A stretch of 64,000 nt of DNA. Origin: Paracyclopina nana. Taxonomy: Eukaryota > Arthropoda > Copepoda > Cyclopoida > Cyclopettidae. The stretch lies in contig JAGUCH010000002.1 in assembly GCA_019096065.1 (NCBI GenBank), positions 4,104,501-4,168,500 on the forward strand. Reading direction: 5' to 3'. Both the position numbers and the translations under genes were made by a program. Numbering within the stretch: the stretch's first letter is position 1; each line of letters starts with the position of its first letter. The notes under the pieces were generated by a model. That model made no database searches and was not told the DNA's origin. It saw only the letters and a program-made list of their open reading frames with translations. Shown piece after piece: positions 52,232 to 64,000 of this stretch.

Positions 52232-55200
52232 CTAACGCTCTGCACTATTGCTGCTCTCATCCTCTCCACCTTCCTCTTGATTTTTGCCAAGACTTTCCTC
52301 TTCAGCTGATTCCAAAATGGGCTGGATGTACTTCTTCTGCGGAGATCCTGGCAAACTCATATTGTTGGTAGGAGGAGGAGCCACGTCATTCTGGACCACA
52401 GATGGAATCTCCAGATAGTGGCCATCCCTCCCATTGTAATGAACGTGGTGAGGCTGAGGAGACTGGTTATCCTCGTCCCGATCCACTTCGATGTCACTTT
52501 CTGAGCATGCCATGAAAAAAAGCGTCACACTCTCTAGTTTCCTTTAATCCGTAACTTACCTAATCCTCCGCCATTGATGTCTTTGTCAACTAATTTCCGC
52601 TCTAAAATGTTGACCTTTTCCTACGAGATAAAATTCAATTGGAATCAATTCTTCTTATATTCCTGAATGGCATGAACTATGTATAGTATGTGAATTCTCG
52701 AAGTCAGTCTTACATTGAATTGACAATTACAAGTCCTGCACTAATTTAAATCCAGCAGACCTACCTATTAAAATTAACTACTTTTTTTACAGCCAACTCC
52801 TGGGTGATTTCACCATTTTCTGCGCAAAACATATACTCCGAACGTCAGCATCATCATCGTAAATCATAAAGTTATTATAGTCCTCATTACCTGGTAGTTG
52901 GTGGTGACAGAGTCCAGCTTTTCTTGGTAGTTGGCAATGATTCTCTCCATTTCGTTGAGCTTCTCCTCCCGGGGATCGATCTGCGATATGCCACTGGCCA
53001 AACTGACCGCTCGGGCCAAAGGTGGCAGCCTTGGGACGTTCGAGGCTGACTTGGGATGGATGAGTCCCATTCCAGAGGGAGGTCTGGAGGCGTTCATGTT
53101 CATCAATTGGGTGCCAGGTCTGGACATCAGAAAGTCGTTGCTGCCATAGCCATACCTTTCGGCCTCAGCGTGCTCAATTACTTGGCCGAGGACCTCGTTC
53201 CACACGAAAATCTTCGAGTCCACGTACAGCTTGTCGTACTCCAAAAAGCAGGCCTTTTCTGGGTTGATTTTTTTTATCTGCAGCAGAAAAGCAATCATGG
53301 AAGCATGACGTAAGCGCAGACGAGAAAAAAAACCACGTCATAATTTACTTCTGTGGAGAGCATCATGATGTGAATTGAGACCATATATAAACTCACTTGA
53401 CGCATAAATTTCCTCAATTCTTGGCGACTTTCGCGGGTTCGCTTGCTCAAATCCTCGGTGACGATGACATTTGCTTTTTTGAGAACTTTAGCCAGCCTCA
53501 GAACAGTTTCGCGATCCTTGAACGTTTCGAACGTGACGAGAACAGGGCGACAGCCTCTGACCTCTGGCCCAGTGTGCACTCGGTTAGCTTTCAAAAGGGG
53601 AATTTCCCTTCGGATGCTCAAATTGTCTCTTAATATGGTTGCAATTCGCGTACGCAGGCTTTCACTCGTCTCGGGGTGCTTCGTGGTGATTCCATACAGT
53701 ATTAAATTATTCTTCTTGTTTTGCTCAAATTCATACATCTTTTCCTGCAAGAGCACAATCAGCAGTATATTAATGCATTCTTCGTGGCTGAAGGGATCTT
53801 TATGTTTTTGGTTGTTTAAGAGCAGCCAACATGCCAAATTTCAGCATGCAACTCAGGTTTGTACGAAAGGCAATTCATCTACTGTATTTTTGCGTGTACG
53901 AATGTGTGCTTGAATGTAAAGAGGAAGAAATAATAAGTTTCAGCCCAAAAATAAATCGAAAGACGACTTGATTCCAATGAAAGCATAACAGTTGACAACA
54001 CGAAAGCCTAAAAATGGAATTGGTTGCTCCTTGAGATTATGCAGCAAAGGGCGAGATGCTGGTACATGCCCCAACAAGTGAAAATTGAAAGTGACCGCCT
54101 CGCATTTCATGGTCAAAGGTTATGATAAAAGTGACAGCTTTGAGGCTGAGACCTAGCCATTACTTTTGTCATGCATACAGCACTTTTCATGCATGGTATC
54201 AGTTTAGCAAAAGCCATAATCGTGCACGACGAGAACATGGGACACAGTTAAAAAGCCATCGAGCAAAAAATACCGCGAAGCTGCTGCAAACAAATGCCTA
54301 GCTCCCGGACATCAAACTGAAAAAACAAAAAGAAGGACGAATTTGTTTCATGCAATTTCAGTTGTGCTTCAGCATATTTCTCCCAATTGAATGGCGATGT
54401 TACCTGAACCTCATCCAGCATCATATTCATGGTCTCCAGCCTTTCCCTCATGCGGGCAAATTCAACGTCCATGTCGACAAACTTGGCCTTGTATTCACGT
54501 CGTTGCTCCTTTGTAGTAGAGACCAAGGCCTGAATTTTGCCTGCAAATCATGAAACAAGGCCACATAAGTCACAGCACCAAGGCCAAGAAGAAGGCATAG
54601 TAAAAAGTAGTAACCTTGAAAATGCAAAGCCTTCTATGGCATGCAGTAACTGAAGAATGACATGTCCCTTCACTGTCTTTCACTGCAATATGCCATATAA
54701 GACGAAATAATCATTTTCAATTAGTCAGGCAATAACGAGTTACCTCCGTTAATAATATGAAGAGACAGCAAAAATAGATTTTCCTCCTTTATCTCATTAG
54801 TTGAAAAATTTCTCGCGAAATGGGAACGAGTCAAAAATATCACAACAATGCAGCTCAAATTAAGCTTATTACCTGTGCTCATTCTATTCTGCCCTACAAC
54901 GACTGGAAAGGCTCAACAAGGCTCGATAATGGACAATGCCATGCTAATCCAGTCCAGTGTGATGCATCAAATAAAGAGTCAAGCTCAACTACGTCAACCT
55001 CCGAACCTAACTTTCATTCGCTCCATTTTGGACAATGGCAATGGCGATAGAAATAATATGACAGCCTCGATGGATCACAAATCAAAGCCAGTGAAGAGAA
55101 TCAACTATGTGGCTTGCCTCCTTTTTACTATACCAATCATCCTTGGCGTGATCATCGTTGGAATTTTAGTGTGGCTTTTCTGGCTCATACTAAGGCCCTG

Positions 55201-56503
55201 CACTTGCAGAGCCAAAGTTCCTTGCTTACCTTGAGACTCGATTTTGATGTCCTTCACACGCTGTTCCAACGAACTGTAGAATCCCTGCAATTGAAATAGT
55301 ATGAAACATTGTCAATTATCCAAAAGGAAATTGAACTCGCCTTCAAATTTTCGGCATCATTCAAAACATCCTGGACGTTTCCCTCACTTTGCGACTTGAA
55401 CTTTTTCACTTGGGTCTCGACGTCGTGAATCTTCTTGCCCGAGCTCTCCGTGGCCTCGTTGACCTCGGATTGGAACTGGTCGAAATTCGTCTTGAACTCG
55501 TCGATTTTCGACTCTGCCGCGAGAAACTTTTGAGCCAACTCTTCGGCCAGCTCCTTGAGTTTACTGTCAAGCTCTTCATTTTTGTCGTTTTCTTTCAGCT
55601 TGGCCAGATCGGAAGTCACTTGGCTCAATTGAGCAGTTAAGGTATCCAACTTTTTGGCGTTTTCCTCCTTTTGACTGGCCAAGTCCTTTTCCAAACCTTA
55701 CGTTCGCGAAAATACAAAATATTTAATTTATATTTACATTTCGTCGACACAATTTAAGGCGCAATAATGGCTTTTTACATTATTTTGGAACGCGAACAAT
55801 TTTCCTAATTCTTTGATTAGTTTGATGTTTGATTGAAAAATATTACGGTTTTCTCGGAAAATTTCATTTTTGTGCTCCTAAGGGGAATCCTAGAAAGTAT
55901 CTGGACATTAATGAAAGAGATTGACATCAAATTCGATTTAAAGATGAAAACCGGAATGAAGGGCTGAGCAACAATTTGTCGGCCAATAAAAACCCCTATT
56001 TCTCGGAACTGCCTTTTGAAATACTGAAAGTTTTTAGTTAAATCCTGGCCAATAATCGTAATGGAACCTTTTTAGAGATTCTTAAAAATAAAATCGTTTT
56101 ATAACTTTCATCGTTTAACCATGACGTTGGTTCAGGATGACCTTTTTTCTTATTCCGAGCATTAATTCGATCCTTCCAATTCAAGTCGACAACATTTCTG
56201 TTCACTGGTTACGTTGTTCATTGTTCATCTCTAACTTTAAACTGGCCACTTAGTCGAAAACTTAGAAAAAAATCAGTAAGTTACAAAGTACAGGTGAATG
56301 GGATTAATTTTAGATTGTATTGCGGCTTCATTATTACCTTGTATTTTTTCTTCATAGCTTTGCACTGTGGTTTCCAACTCAGCAATTTTTTGCTCTGGTG
56401 TGGGACCTTCTGGTGCCTTGGCGGGTGCACCCTTTTTAGGTCCTGGATTCAGCTCCACATCTCCTGACAAAACTAGAAGAGTTTGTGCCAAGCTCCAAGT
56501 CAT
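52232..56503 (-). CDS. Spliced 2A-led coiled-coil / LINE ORF1-like protein
   Basis: Exons 56503-56338, 55696-55341, 55284-55230, 54540-54404, 53744-53397, 53277-52891, 52835-52782 (least certain), 52620-52560 and 52500-52232 give 610 residues. Residues 1-22 end in SGDVELNPGP, a full 2A ribosome-skipping motif. Residues about 45-235 are Lys/Glu-rich coiled coil (EELDSKLKELAEELAQKFL). The next two exons resemble LINE-1 ORF1 (Transposase_22) proteins: NKKNNLILYGI, GCRPVLVTFETFKDRETVL, ANVIVTEDLSKRTRESRQEL, then YDKLYVDSKIFVWNEV, i.e. the RNA-binding RRM plus C-terminal domain order. A Ser/Pro-rich and acidic tail follows. Intron 55340-55285 has a GC donor. The many introns and lack of a linked endonuclease/reverse transcriptase argue for a host gene derived from a retroelement rather than a live element. 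No function can be assigned. Confidence 0.65.
54248..54316 (-). CDS. Alternative terminal exon of the 2A/ORF1-like gene
   Basis: A good acceptor (GTTTTTTCAG) opens a frame FDVRELGICLQQLRGIF that runs to TAA at 54248, in the same phase (0) as the preceding exon. Using it would truncate the protein right after the coiled coil, before the ORF1-like part. Confidence 0.4.
   Translation of the reverse strand, partial: FDVRELGICLQQLRGIFCSMAF
54848..55234 (+). CDS. Nested small type I membrane protein ORF
   Basis: A single open frame of 128 codons lies on the plus strand inside an intron (55229-54541) of the minus-strand 2A gene; its last five bases overlap the neighbouring exon. It begins with a classic signal peptide (MQLKLSLLPVLILFCPTTTG), has two NxT/S sites (NLT, NMT), a membrane helix (LFTIPIILGVIIVGILVWLF) and a Cys-rich tail CTCRAKVPCLP. 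The ordered signal-helix-tail layout is unlikely by chance, but there is no splice or homology support. Confidence 0.5.
   Translation: MQLKLSLLPVLILFCPTTTGKAQQGSIMDNAMLIQSSVMHQIKSQAQLRQPPNLTFIRSILDNGNGDRNNMTASMDHKSKPVKRINYVACLLFTIPIILGVIIVGILVWLFWLILRPCTCRAKVPCLP
56438..56467 (-). other. 2A-type translational recoding motif
   Basis: Codons 13-22 read SGDVELNPGP, preceded by TLLVL. The D-V-E-x-N-P-G-P core with the hydrophobic LL stretch before it is the known consensus at which ribosomes skip the last Gly-Pro bond, releasing the upstream peptide and continuing from Pro. Here the upstream product would be a 21-residue leader (MTWSLAQTLLVL...). Confidence 0.8.
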
Positions 56504-58763: not shown

Positions 58764-61700
58764 TTAGGTTGACGAAATGAGACGGACATTAAAGAGAGCT
58801 GGAGATTCCACATGAGCTGTCAAAGCAGAACCTTGAGACTTTTTGCCAATTGAAATCCAAATTTTGTCATCCTTGCTCAGCTTCTCCAATGTTGACACTG
58901 AGGGTGAGGTCTGGACAACCATGCCTTGAGGGTCTTCTTTGTGGTACACTCCACTAAATCCGGCTCCAATGACTTTTTCTATATTGAAAAATTCTAAAGC
59001 TGTACCTCTATATTTTTTGATGATTTTTACCATCTTGGGCTCCCTTTTGTTTTTTATTGATGTTAATCCAAATCCTGGTCCCCTCATAAGACGTCAATGT
59101 GCCAGAAAAGGAGATTACGTAATAGCCATCAAAGGGAGCAGTGAACACTCCAGATTCCACCCAAGATTCCGCACTTTTCTGGGAAGCCTGACAGAAATTG
59201 TACCTCACAATTCCTGTCACATTTGAGGCAGAGTCCAGTGCACATGATATCAGTTGAGCATTTTTAGGCTCTGTCACCACTTCAATAAAGCCATGTGCCA
59301 CAGCAGACTCTTGAATATTGGAGCAGTCCCCTGCATTCAGGCTCAATCCTATTTCCAGGGGAAAGCTGGCAAAATCATCAACTTTCAAAGCATAGAATTG
59401 AAAGGCAGCTGGAAGTAATATGTTGGTGGATGTTTTTGGCTGATGCTGCTGATCAAACAGTAGTGATGCCTTCAGTGAAGCATCAGTGGATAGTCTGCCT
59501 GCTTGGACTGGCTGGAGGCTGAGAGACACTGAATCACAATCAGTACCAGCTAATATGGACCCAGTCACTGAAACCCTAAAAACACCTTCACCGCTCAAAG
59601 AAATTCCATTTGAGGCATTGTCAACTGAAATTGAGCTGTCATTTTCTCCAATACAATTTTTCACTGCTACTTCTCCTTTCACAACTCTCACAGCACATGT
59701 CAAAACTGAAAGAAAAAAGGTGCAATTAATAAGTTGAAAATGGGGCCTTTTTGGCTTTACCTGGAGTGGTTGGAGCTCTCTTGTGCCCATAGAATTTCAA
59801 TGGGTACCAATCAGAGTTTACCACTCCACCCAAGCCCTTGCCCTCAACTTCTAGATACACTGAGTCCCCTTTTTGTAAATAAATAGTGGCGTACAAGGCC
59901 CCAGAAGTTCCCACTTTTGCATCTCCATCTGCACTAGCTTCTGTTGTGGCTATGGCTACCTGAAAGCAGGTGTAAAGGGCATTTTACTTCTTCAAAAAAA
60001 CCGCTCTATGCAAAAACACGTATTACATTTCCTCTTTTGAGCCTCACAACCACTCCTTCATCTTGATCCGTTTTTAAAAGTGCATTGGCTGAGAAGTCAT
60101 AAATACCAGATTCAGGGGCAATAAACTCCCCTGATAGCTCTCTGAAAGCTCCACCAAGATTTATGGGGCATTCTTCATACTTGATTGTTGCTGCAAAAAA
60201 AGAAAGCCTGTAGATAATTCTTTTGAAAAAGAGGAGAAATAGTTGTTTACTAGGTTCATCATTTTGTGATATGATTCTTTTGTTTGAGCTGGATGTGCAA
60301 GCAAAAACTATGTCTCCCACTGATGAATTTGGGTGGCTTTCTATTGTTGTTTCAATATCACCTGCAAAGAAAAGCCAACTATTCACCATTTAGAGCATTT
60401 TAATGCGTTGCATGATTTGCCTGTATTGTCCTCCACTTGTGGATCCATTGCAGCCTCAACTAGGTCTTGAATATTATTATTGTGGCTTCCATAATCTAAA
60501 GTGTGATGTAAGTAAACAAAAATAACGATACATTACCAACCAAAGCTAGTCAAATTGACTTTAGAGTGCATTTGTGCGTTAGTATGTGAGCTGTGAAAAT
60601 TTGGAAAAGGAAAGCAGATAGTGTGCAGATTTTATTGTCGTAATGCCTGTGGTGGTGCTACATAAAGAAGCCAATTTTGTTCAACCAATATATATTGTTG
60701 TGGATAAGAAAAAAAGAAGCTGGAAAGTTGAGCAGGGAGAAAGTGAGTTTTTATGAAGACTTGCCATCCTGTGATTCCTCATCTGCAGACTCTGTAGTCT
60801 CTTCACCTGAAAGAGGTTTATTAAAAAAACATGAGACCATGGTCCTCTTCTTTTGTGCATTAGTGACTAACTTAAAAAATTCATCTGGTTTTGGGTGACT
60901 TCGGGGGTCTCCCTGTGCTTTCCAATAATACCGCTGCCAATTACTGATCCACCGCTGTAAGGGAACACTAAATGGACTGGTTGATTGAGGCCAATGTCTT
61001 TCTGAAATTAGAACTCGATTATCTTAGTAATTGTTGAGTTTGTGTGAATTCCTACTTCGTCAGTGGTTGGCTCAAGGCTTTTCTTGAAATTAATGGTAGT
61101 GAAGCCATCTTTCCTCTCTATGCTAGCTTCTAGGATATCCTGGGAGTCATCAGCTGCTGGTGAAGAATAGCCTGTAGCATAGTAATCCTTGACTATGCCG
61201 TTTCCTTCATCATCAAAATATCCTGCCACAATATCAGTTTCAGCCTATGAATAATTCAAGTATTGACACTGGATCCAACTTTGCTGTTATCATATTACCA
61301 TGACACTGTTTTCAGAGAAACCAATTGCTACCCAGTCTTTATCTTCAGCCTTTCCTGTGACTGTAACGTCTAGCATATTATTTGCCACAGTCCATTTTGC
61401 GATGTATTGACAGTCAGGCTCAAGGCATCCACTTGGATGCTTGAATTCATTTGTGGGACCTGACGCAGTGTCTGAAAAGATAACGACAGCATAACATTCA
61501 GTTTTCCTTTCTATTTGAGGCCCTTTTTTGAAATCTTACCAAAAAAGTTGACCATGACAAAGCCCCTGTTTTCTTTTCCATGATACTTGACCTCATCTGG
61601 TTTGTAGAATTCAGGAATCGAAGCTGTGCCCTTCTCAAGACCAGAGTCTGGTTTATGAGAATAACTGCCAATTGTTTGACCAACTGCCCAAATGACCATC

Positions 61701-63931
61701 ATTGGCTCATCCTCAATGGAGTGATCAGTTGGCTCAAATGCTTAAATTAAACTATTTTTAAAGGAAAAAAGGGAGAATGCTTTTTTTACTTTTTAAGCTT
61801 CTTCTAAAAACAACAGTGGTCACTCCTTCTTTTTCATAACCAATAGCCCCCGTAAGATCATCTTGGCCATTGTAAAAGATATCGGGCATAGGAGTGGATC
61901 TAAATTGGTCAAAGTTACAGCTAATAGAGATACTTTTTGCTTTTGCATACCTGTCTCTGGTATAGGCATCATATACTTTCGAGTACTCTCCCCTTGCCAT
62001 GCCAATTATGATATCAGTGCAGTCCATGGGATGCAGTGACTTGGATCGTGGTTGGTACTTGTGTTTCCGTCCTGCATTTCTTGCCTCAACTTTCTCATTC
62101 TCATAATCAGCTCCCTCAGCTTCTCCTTCTGGCTCAGCTACTGATCTTCCCTCAGCTTCAGCTCCTCCTTCTGGCTCAGCTACTGATCTTCCCTCAGCTT
62201 CAGCTTCTCCTTCTGGCTCAGCTACTGATCTTCCCTCAGCTTCTCCTTCTGGCTCAGCTACTGATCTTCCCTCAGCTTCAGCTTCTCCTTCTGGCTCAGC
62301 TACTGATCTTCCCTCAGCTTCAGCTACTGATCTTCCCTCAGCTTCAGCTTCAGCTTCTCCTTCTGGCTCAGCTACTGATCTTCCCTCAGCTTCTGCCTCA
62401 GCTTCACTCTCGGCTTCACTTTCAGCATCTGCTTCCCCAAGAGACCTTAACTCAGCTTCAGCCTCAGCTTCACTCTCGGCCTCACTCTCACCGTCATCTT
62501 CTGTCTCCCTCAGCAATCTAACCACAGCTTCAGCTTCTGCCTCACTCTCAGCATCTGCGTCATCTTCAGATTTGCCCTCAGCCTCAGCTTCACTCTCAGC
62601 TTCTGCATAGCTTCCTTCGTCTCCTTCAGGCTCTGCAACAGATCGCCCCTCTGCTTCTGCCTCAGCTTCGCTCTCAGCTTCTCCTTCTGGCTCAGCAATT
62701 CCTTGGGCATTTCTTGATTCGGCCTCAATAAAAGTACTGAGATCCTCGTCACCTTTTCCTAGTTGTGGGAATGCTTGGCAAGACTGCTCAAGGTTGCTTG
62801 GTCTGAAGCCAAAAGCTAGATAACTCTCAGTCCTTGCTTGCAGAGCTACTTCGATTTCATCTGTGTCTTTCAGGATTTTCCAGTAAACATCCATTATTCC
62901 TTTGTAGTTCTTTTTAGTGTAAGCTTTGTCTTCTAAATCAACTGGGGAGCTTAGGTCTGATTCGATTTCACAAAACTGTCCAAAGTATCCCATGGCGCAA
63001 AAACAGACCTTTGTAGGAGAGGAGGTGGACTCAATATCAATGCATCTGTCGGGAGAAAAAAATCCATACATAGCAACTGTATCAGAAATGCATTCATCTT
63101 ACTTTCCACCATTGAGACAATCGGAATCTTCATGGCAGTCATTTTTGAATTGGCATTGCATTCCATAGTACTTTTTGTCACAAACACAAGCACCTGAAAT
63201 AACAGTAGCTCTAGCCCTTCTTCAATTTCAACTTTAATAGTATACTTGTTGCTTCATCAAAAACTCCATTCTCGGTGCAAAGTTGCCTCTTGCTCAGCGT
63301 GCTGGGCTTGTAAATATCCACGTCAGCGCAAGTCCAAAATCTGTAGCCTCCAGACCACTCTATGGCTTGTCTCATTAACCTGATCTGAAATTGAAGGCAA
63401 AAATGCCAGGAATTTTGCTATCACTGAGCATCTGCAAAAAACCTTACTGTGCAACCAATGCATTCCAAGTCCTCTGGAAGCTCAATCTGGTGGCTTCTTG
63501 CTGTTGTATCTTCATCCAAAAATCCATCTCCTTGGCTGCCTCCATCTTCAGGAGTGAGACTTTTCAGTAAGTTGTCATCAGCCCCAAAAAGCTCCAGCTT
63601 GAAGCCACCTAAAGAGGCAAGAAGTATTACGTTAATTAAATCAAAGACTATGTTTTCCGAGTACTTCAGAGTTTGCTGAAGTACAAAGCTGGTACATGTG
63701 GAAATCTGTACCTTGATGGGGATAAGCTAGATGCCATGTCACATTGAACCTCGTGCCAGCCTCGAGCGAAGTTTTGGATGGACCCTTAGGCATCCCACAG
63801 GGCGCTGGAGTGCGAACATTATCCAAAAAGTCCAAAGCCAAATCTCTGGCTCTCGGAAAGTCGAGCCTCACATGAGCTCGGCTTACGCCCAGTAGAGTAC
63901 AAAATAAAATTACCAAATTGCCACCAACCAT
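58764..63931 (-). CDS. Large secreted protein: X325/LPMO-like, EGF-type, two DOMON and two C1q-like domains
   Basis: Sixteen exons form a single in-phase chain of 1351 residues: 63931-63712, 63608-63448, 63384-63246, 63193-63103, 63045-61790, 61740-61540, 61471-61299, 61244-61056, 61001-60872, 60806-60765, 60495-60421, 60361-60251, 60190-60027, 59959-59761, 59705-59031, 58993-58764. A signal peptide (ending GVSRA) leaves mature His1 (HVRLDFPRARD), PCGMPKG and TWHLAYPH with His48, as in X325/Bim1-type copper proteins. Then CVCDKKYYG...CHEDSDC and CFCAMGYFGQFC (EGF-type); DOMON 1 (VYWKILKDTDEIEVALQAR ... DCTDIIIGMARG) split by a Glu/Ala repeat; DOMON 2 (AKWTVANNMLDVTV ... DWVAIGFSENSVM); and C1q-like parts (GEFIAPESGIYDFSANALLK; GVFTAPFDGYYVISFSGTL). 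Introns 60764-60496 and 60420-60362 need GC donors. If exon 10 runs on, a form ending at 60751 without C1q domains results. DOMON domains are known to bind haem or sugars. Confidence 0.7.
62100..62720 (-). repeat. In-frame coding repeat, AEGRSVAEPEGE type
   Basis: Within exon 5 of the DOMON protein, about 200 codons are built from AEAEGRSVAEPEGE-like units and Glu/Ala/Ser runs (AESEAEAEAE). The downstream-most copies are nearly identical at DNA level (units of 24-42 bases built on CTTCTGGCTCAGCTACTGA on the plus strand), so copy number is probably polymorphic. Confidence 0.85.
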
Positions 63932-64000
63932 TCTTCTTCGCACAGATGAAGCTGTTTAGGCGGAAAATTCTGCACCTTTCGTTAATTAGTGTTGTTAAGC
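63932..64000. other. Upstream edge of the DOMON gene
   Basis: Probable 5' UTR and promoter; too short to say more. Confidence 0.3.

Follow-up and report, generated by a model that had tools for sequence, protein, structure and literature searches.

Cellular genes with a 2A (StopGo) ribosome-skipping signal and host genes derived from open reading frame 1 (ORF1) of long interspersed nuclear elements (LINEs) are each already known. Non-LTR (non-long-terminal-repeat) retrotransposons of the apurinic endonuclease (APE) type are said, in Odon's work of 2013, to have a 2A near the N-terminus of the element proteins, and we know of no 2A in L1TD1, an ORF1-derived gene. These retrotransposons are mobile elements, whereas the gene described here, which lies in a 64,000-nucleotide (nt) stretch of the genome of the copepod Paracyclopina nana (the window), is spliced and present in low copy number, and other copepods have relatives of it. 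L1TD1 of placental mammals is described as a LINE ORF1-derived host gene for an RNA-binding protein (PMC4161310, PMC11925450), as we propose for the P. nana family, but it is mammalian and comes from LINE-1 (L1); the abstracts of these two reports contain no mention of a 2A. The EKA effector genes of powdery mildew were likewise co-opted from part of a LINE ORF1, but have more than 1350 homologues in a fungus with abundant LINE copies, and the abstract of that report does not mention a 2A (PMC4641428). Sea-urchin NLR genes are, like the P. nana gene, cellular genes with an N-terminal 2A, the activity of which is reported as demonstrated in sea urchin; they encode another protein, and their 2A doubles as a signal sequence (PMC4981915), a feature not kept throughout the P. 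nana family.

StopGo has been described as largely viral and rarely cellular (PMC12846837). In the titles and abstract beginnings of the open papers covered by our searches, we found no report of a 2A together with an ORF1-derived host gene, or of a 2A in copepods. The sequence evidence presented below makes it quite probable that the P. nana gene belongs to an ORF1-derived copepod host gene family keeping an N-terminal 2A that skips, giving a Pro-initiated RNA-binding protein.

Structure of the gene and its 2A core

The gene occupies 56503-52232 on the minus strand and comprises eight exons that join into a single 592-amino-acid (aa) frame, in agreement with the coordinates and reading of an earlier note on this DNA (52232..56503). 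Its features, in window positions, are as follows; RRM denotes an RNA recognition motif and ORF1p the ORF1 protein.

56338..56503, minus strand: exon 1, with the start codon, a 21-aa leader bearing the StopGo/2A core (aa 13-22) and the first part of the coiled coil
56438..56461, minus strand: 2A core octapeptide DVELNPGP, with the skip predicted between Gly21 and Pro22 (core as defined in PMC12846837)
55341..55696, minus strand: exon 2, coiled coil, ending with a GC donor; its junctions agree with relatives
55230..55284, minus strand: exon 3, coiled coil, from the frame and alignment with relatives
54404..54540, minus strand: exon 4, coiled coil, from the frame and alignment with relatives
53397..53744, minus strand: exon 5, L1 ORF1p-type RRM and helix 1 of the C-terminal domain, from the profile and the P0010 fold
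52891..53277, minus strand: exon 6, remaining C-terminal domain, linker and second coiled coil
52560..52620, minus strand: exon 7, second coiled coil, from the frame and alignment with relatives
52232..52500, minus strand: exon 8, acidic tail at the C-terminus, then the stop codon

Of the seven introns, that at 55340-55285 is GC-AG; the other six are all GT-AG. An in-frame stop lies upstream of the ATG. A possible 43-base exon at 54316-54274 was rejected because it breaks the frame. Just before the start codon there is also an upstream open reading frame of two codons (ATG AGC TGA; 56536-56528, minus strand).

Relatives were found by three protein searches, which gave 17, 285 (120 listed) and 51 proteins. 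At its exon junctions, the protein was aligned with six of the nine relatives in its class that bear a 2A; P0004, P0005 and P0008 were left out. Alignment was gapless in 6/6 relatives at junctions 1/2, 2/3, 3/4, 5/6 and 6/7; at junction 4/5 there is a 17-residue insert in P0007. Conservation is poor around junction 7/8, where P0003 has an insert and P0009 ends. Measured overall, identity with the P. nana protein is 75-76% for P0001-P0003, 64% for P0006, 51% for P0007 and 48% for P0009. P0001 to P0005 and P0009, six of the nine relatives, fill contigs of 1.9-2.7 kb; because these are too short for a gene with introns like those of the P. nana gene, the six are probably complementary DNA or, less probably, intronless copies.

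The complete 2A core proposed earlier, SGDVELNPGP, is present in the translation at codons 13-22, in frame with the coiled coil, the RRM and the C-terminal domain. Residues 15-22, DVELNPGP, match the core definition (D/G/C/N)(V/I)ExNPGP, and the hexapeptide upstream, LLVLSG, resembles by eye the LLLLSG-like class, with G before D. Four upstream classes with such cores, the LLLLSG-like one included, are reported to have supported StopGo in reticulocyte lysate (PMC12846837).

We infer that synthesis of the protein would proceed as follows. Ribosomes would translate the leader first, and its Leu-rich stretch and DVELNPGP would act in the exit tunnel; the Gly21-Pro22 bond would not be made, and the 21-aa leader would thus be released. 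Translation would then resume to give a Pro-initiated 571-aa protein, the presumed main product, with a long coiled coil, an ORF1p-type RRM and a C-terminal domain, which is predicted to oligomerise and bind RNA. Some relatives that lack a 2A start with Met at about the post-2A Pro (P0012, P0018 and P0019 begin MSKK or MSRR approximately where 2A-bearing relatives would resume with PPRR or PKK), which points to the leaderless protein as the working form; P0011 and P0032, also without a 2A, have other starts. As the most likely use of the 2A we favour, though only loosely, a translational gate on the RNA-binding protein that would also remove the leader.

Paralogous loci and conservation of the core

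The P. nana gene is one of about eight paralogous loci. In the genome searched (92 Mb, 10 contigs), the protein matched seven loci, on contigs C2 (the gene itself), C9, C4, C7 and, three times, C8, and the L044 domain used as a query recovered the same seven. The motif search added an eighth locus, also on C8, whose domain match is weak (E 6e-11). The full 2A core is present at six of the seven loci found by protein similarity. At L044, a single open frame takes in the 2A and the beginning of the RRM; at the other paralogues the frame from the 2A to the RRM crosses inferred introns, and this frame is tentative for L043, L045, L047 and L048.

A core pattern in which Glu was required and the first residue could be D, N, G, S, C, Y, H or R occurred at 7 places in the 92 Mb, compared with 0 in a reversed control, and occurrence of the core thus exceeds chance. 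All seven places are at loci with the same ORF1-like domain, the domain match being weak for L048 (6e-11). The pattern D[VI]xxNPGP gave 11 genomic places compared with 1 in the control, and ExNPGP alone was near chance (32 compared with 22). DVSTNPGP, DILSNPGP and DVVKNPGP, at loci without a family match in tblastn, were judged to be chance occurrences. The same judgement was made of DVNPNPGP at window position 59059 on the plus strand, which has no core Glu and is antisense to the end of a likely gene; it stands behind a hydrophobic stretch.

Constraint on the core was tabulated in 24 sequences chosen for having NPGP. D, E, N, P, G and P are fixed in them, position 2 is V or I, and position 4 is occupied by seven different residues. 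The core is immediately preceded by G in 16 and by N in 8, and Leu stands five places ahead of the core in 22/24. Codon comparisons among the genome's own seven cores show 76 differences in 126, and 76/76 of these are synonymous, the search pattern itself having demanded these residues. Across the 2A-bearing members, with P0130 and P0157 left aside, the leader varies in length from 20 to 121 residues. The 2A might be an inactive LINE leftover, or be retained on other grounds, for instance for the sake of the leader peptide, and the existence of relatives that live without a 2A would accord with this. We consider both quite unlikely, as the positions under constraint match those of viral StopGo (fixed D, V/I, E, N, P, G and P; free position 4) and stay constrained in leaders of such different length. 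That the signal is kept in copies otherwise very different suggests that the animal uses the 2A.

Leader sequences

Leader hydrophobicity, expressed as the maximum 9-residue Kyte-Doolittle value, is 2.68 in P0006, 3.27 in P0007, 3.13 in L043, 3.14 in L045 and a moderate 1.80 in the P. nana gene. Non-hydrophobic leaders are found in L044, P0041, P0046 and P0072 (0.22-0.97) and in P0045 (1.64), and weakly hydrophobic ones in P0008 (1.06) and P0009 (1.12), where the core lies about 60 residues in. By analogy with the sea-urchin NLR genes, the leader could act as a signal sequence when skipping fails, yielding secreted or membrane forms alongside cytosolic ones. Such dual targeting is reported as demonstrated for SpNLR2A6 (PMC4981915). 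A hydrophobic stretch alongside the early 2A of P0006, P0007, L043 and L045, weaker in the P. nana gene, is consistent with it. Dual targeting is nonetheless unlikely here, because the core is still kept behind the non-hydrophobic or weakly hydrophobic leaders of L044, P0041, P0046, P0072, P0008 and P0009, and because the secretory pathway would be of no obvious use to an RNA-binding coiled-coil protein. The earlier suggestion of a leader-bearing form with a different localisation thus finds no support for the family as a whole.

The constant feature across the leaders is the 2A core. In P0004 and P0005, an initial 2A breaks off after NP and is followed by an intact second 2A. P0008 and P0009 have a similar leader ahead of their 2A, and the LLLCGEID-like stretch within that of P0009 is perhaps a decayed 2A.

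ORF1-like body and probable LINE origin

After the core, the protein consists of a long coiled coil, the RRM, a small C-terminal domain, a second coiled coil and an acidic tail. A family profile searched against the PDB matched LINE-1 ORF1p at 3.1e-07, and the fold computed for the relative P0010, the domain of which is 66% identical to that of the P. nana protein, agrees with the RRM and C-terminal domain of ORF1p. In the VIA-align results for this fold, the LINE-1 chains are followed by further RRM proteins and a small number of unrelated proteins. Pfam gave nothing above curated cut-offs for family members. The profile and the relative's fold together confirm that the protein carries a coiled coil followed by an ORF1p-type RRM and C-terminal domain, spread over several exons as the earlier note had read them.

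The tick protein P0157 (Haemaphysalis longicornis) shows LLLLSGDVETNPGP, a short coiled coil and then the RRM and C-terminal domain; its two main matching pieces with the P. nana protein are 25% identity over 237 columns, plus the 2A. With a 2A ahead of an ORF1-like body, P0157 provides the likeness to the 2A-bearing frames of APE-type non-LTR retrotransposons and is probably itself a LINE ORF1. In Rhodnius P0164, an endonuclease-reverse-transcriptase domain (PF14529) is joined to a C-terminal piece that is similar by eye. Because P0157 has the same parts and P0164 joins PF14529, the order of 2A, coiled coil, RRM and C-terminal domain is likely the layout of a LINE ORF1, and the tick protein suggests that it is ancestral. 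We infer that a LINE with an ORF1 already starting in a 2A was the source of an old host gene family.

As the domain and the 2A are those of LINE ORF1 proteins, the loci could also be copies of a mobile or only recently dead LINE. We regard this as highly improbable. In genome searches that score the best candidates, PF14529 had no match. No endonuclease frame of LINE size was found, the 10 PF03372 matches lying in frames of at most 614 aa, and none of the 10 was seen by eye within 50 kb of an RVT_1 place among the best 150 of 658 RVT_1 candidates. No RVT_1 place fell in the window among these best 150. P0157 as a genome query found 4 places only, all of them family loci, and no intronless family copy was seen in the genome; near-identical intronless copies linked to a reverse transcriptase, which would have spoken for a mobile element, were likewise not seen within this RVT_1 sample. 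Introns are present and lie mostly at different places in each copy, domain identity between the P. nana gene and six paralogues is 35-48%, and there are relatives in other copepods. In place of the downstream endonuclease and reverse transcriptase and the intronless, multicopy state of an active LINE, we find eight exons and about eight diverged loci; the introns, low copy number and relatives in other species seen here are those of a domesticated transposable-element gene. The capture of an ORF1 protein as an intron-bearing host gene, proposed earlier, is supported by these findings.

One of the 10 PF03372 (Exo_endo_phos) matches adjoins L048, in what we take, by eye, to be a neutral sphingomyelinase-like gene. 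Many RVT_1 matches have identical scores and lie in frames of about 1368-1493 aa that look by eye like LTR retroelements.

Relatives, tree and number of captures

Among the matches listed, the named organisms are the copepods Tigriopus, Eurytemora and Lepeophtheirus, the tick Haemaphysalis longicornis and Rhodnius, the copepods being the nearest of them; within the class of the P. nana gene, organism names stand on P0007 and P0008 only. The 2A was surveyed in 164 collected proteins, many of them fragments. NPGP is present in 42/164, with the full core in 41/42, and the remaining one, P0133, starts inside the core. By best match, the 42 proteins fall to the class of the P. nana gene (9), L042 (2), L043 (3), L044 (25, one being the distant tick protein) and L045 (3). 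Five paralogue classes thus have 2A-bearing relatives elsewhere, including in Tigriopus, Eurytemora and Lepeophtheirus.

A midpoint-rooted tree was built from 39 domain rows, P0127 to P0164 being left out, and the 2A occurs on both sides of its root. The presence of the 2A changes 6 times on this tree compared with a mean of 13.2 in shuffles, and 0/500 shuffles were as low, near-copies inflating the contrast. Eleven introns were mapped in the domains of seven loci, the second intron of L046 being doubtful (54 bases, open frame). The P. nana gene and L042 share the place of the phase-0 intron that follows KFMRQ and precedes exon 6, L044 and L045 share another place, and the remaining mapped domain introns differ in place.

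Several points count against the proposed history. No 2A was seen in the stretch read at L046 (C7), which has the domain, or in many relatives, P0010-P0035 among them, some of these being incomplete sequences, and a 2A is therefore not strictly required in the family. Five of the six changes on the tree are forced by supported branches. Of the two models with which comparison had been proposed, LINE-1 ORF1p was found by the profile, but single-sequence Pfam scans of the full protein and of 15 domain sequences in no case listed Transposase_22. The genome may hold LINE reverse transcriptases, the RVT_1 view being that of the best 150 of 658 candidates. Finally, with 2 shared intron places among 11 mapped in 7 loci, there may have been several separate captures of related 2A-bearing LINE ORF1s, each gaining introns afterwards. 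Most domain introns differ in place between paralogues and the tree has two deep groups, as such captures would leave them; the places shared by the P. nana gene with L042 (also in phase) and by L044 with L045 argue against it. We view several captures as a tentative possibility, and one otherwise compatible with the explanation proposed here. On balance, we lean towards capture of a LINE before the copepod orders split, with N-terminal skipping retained in at least five paralogue lines as an obligatory or regulated step in making the protein; no such LINE was seen in the genome.

A host gene family of low copy number whose 2A is intact in different lineages of copepods would offer a natural system for the cellular role of ribosome skipping. 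Relatives without a 2A, with a broken first and an intact second 2A, and with a 2A behind a longer leader provide built-in comparisons. If true, the explanation would also add a further case of a LINE ORF1 turned into host genes.

Other observations

The relative P0162 has, by eye, an ORF1-like RRM and C-terminal domain in the same protein as a NADAR domain. The minus strand of the window at 58764-59983 contains the open frames of a likely spliced gene; Pfam gave no match up to E 0.1 for the frames 59008-59796 and 59726-59983. At the end of the window, positions 62001-64000 have a GC skew of -0.218, compared with an absolute value of at most 0.083 in the other 2-kb steps.
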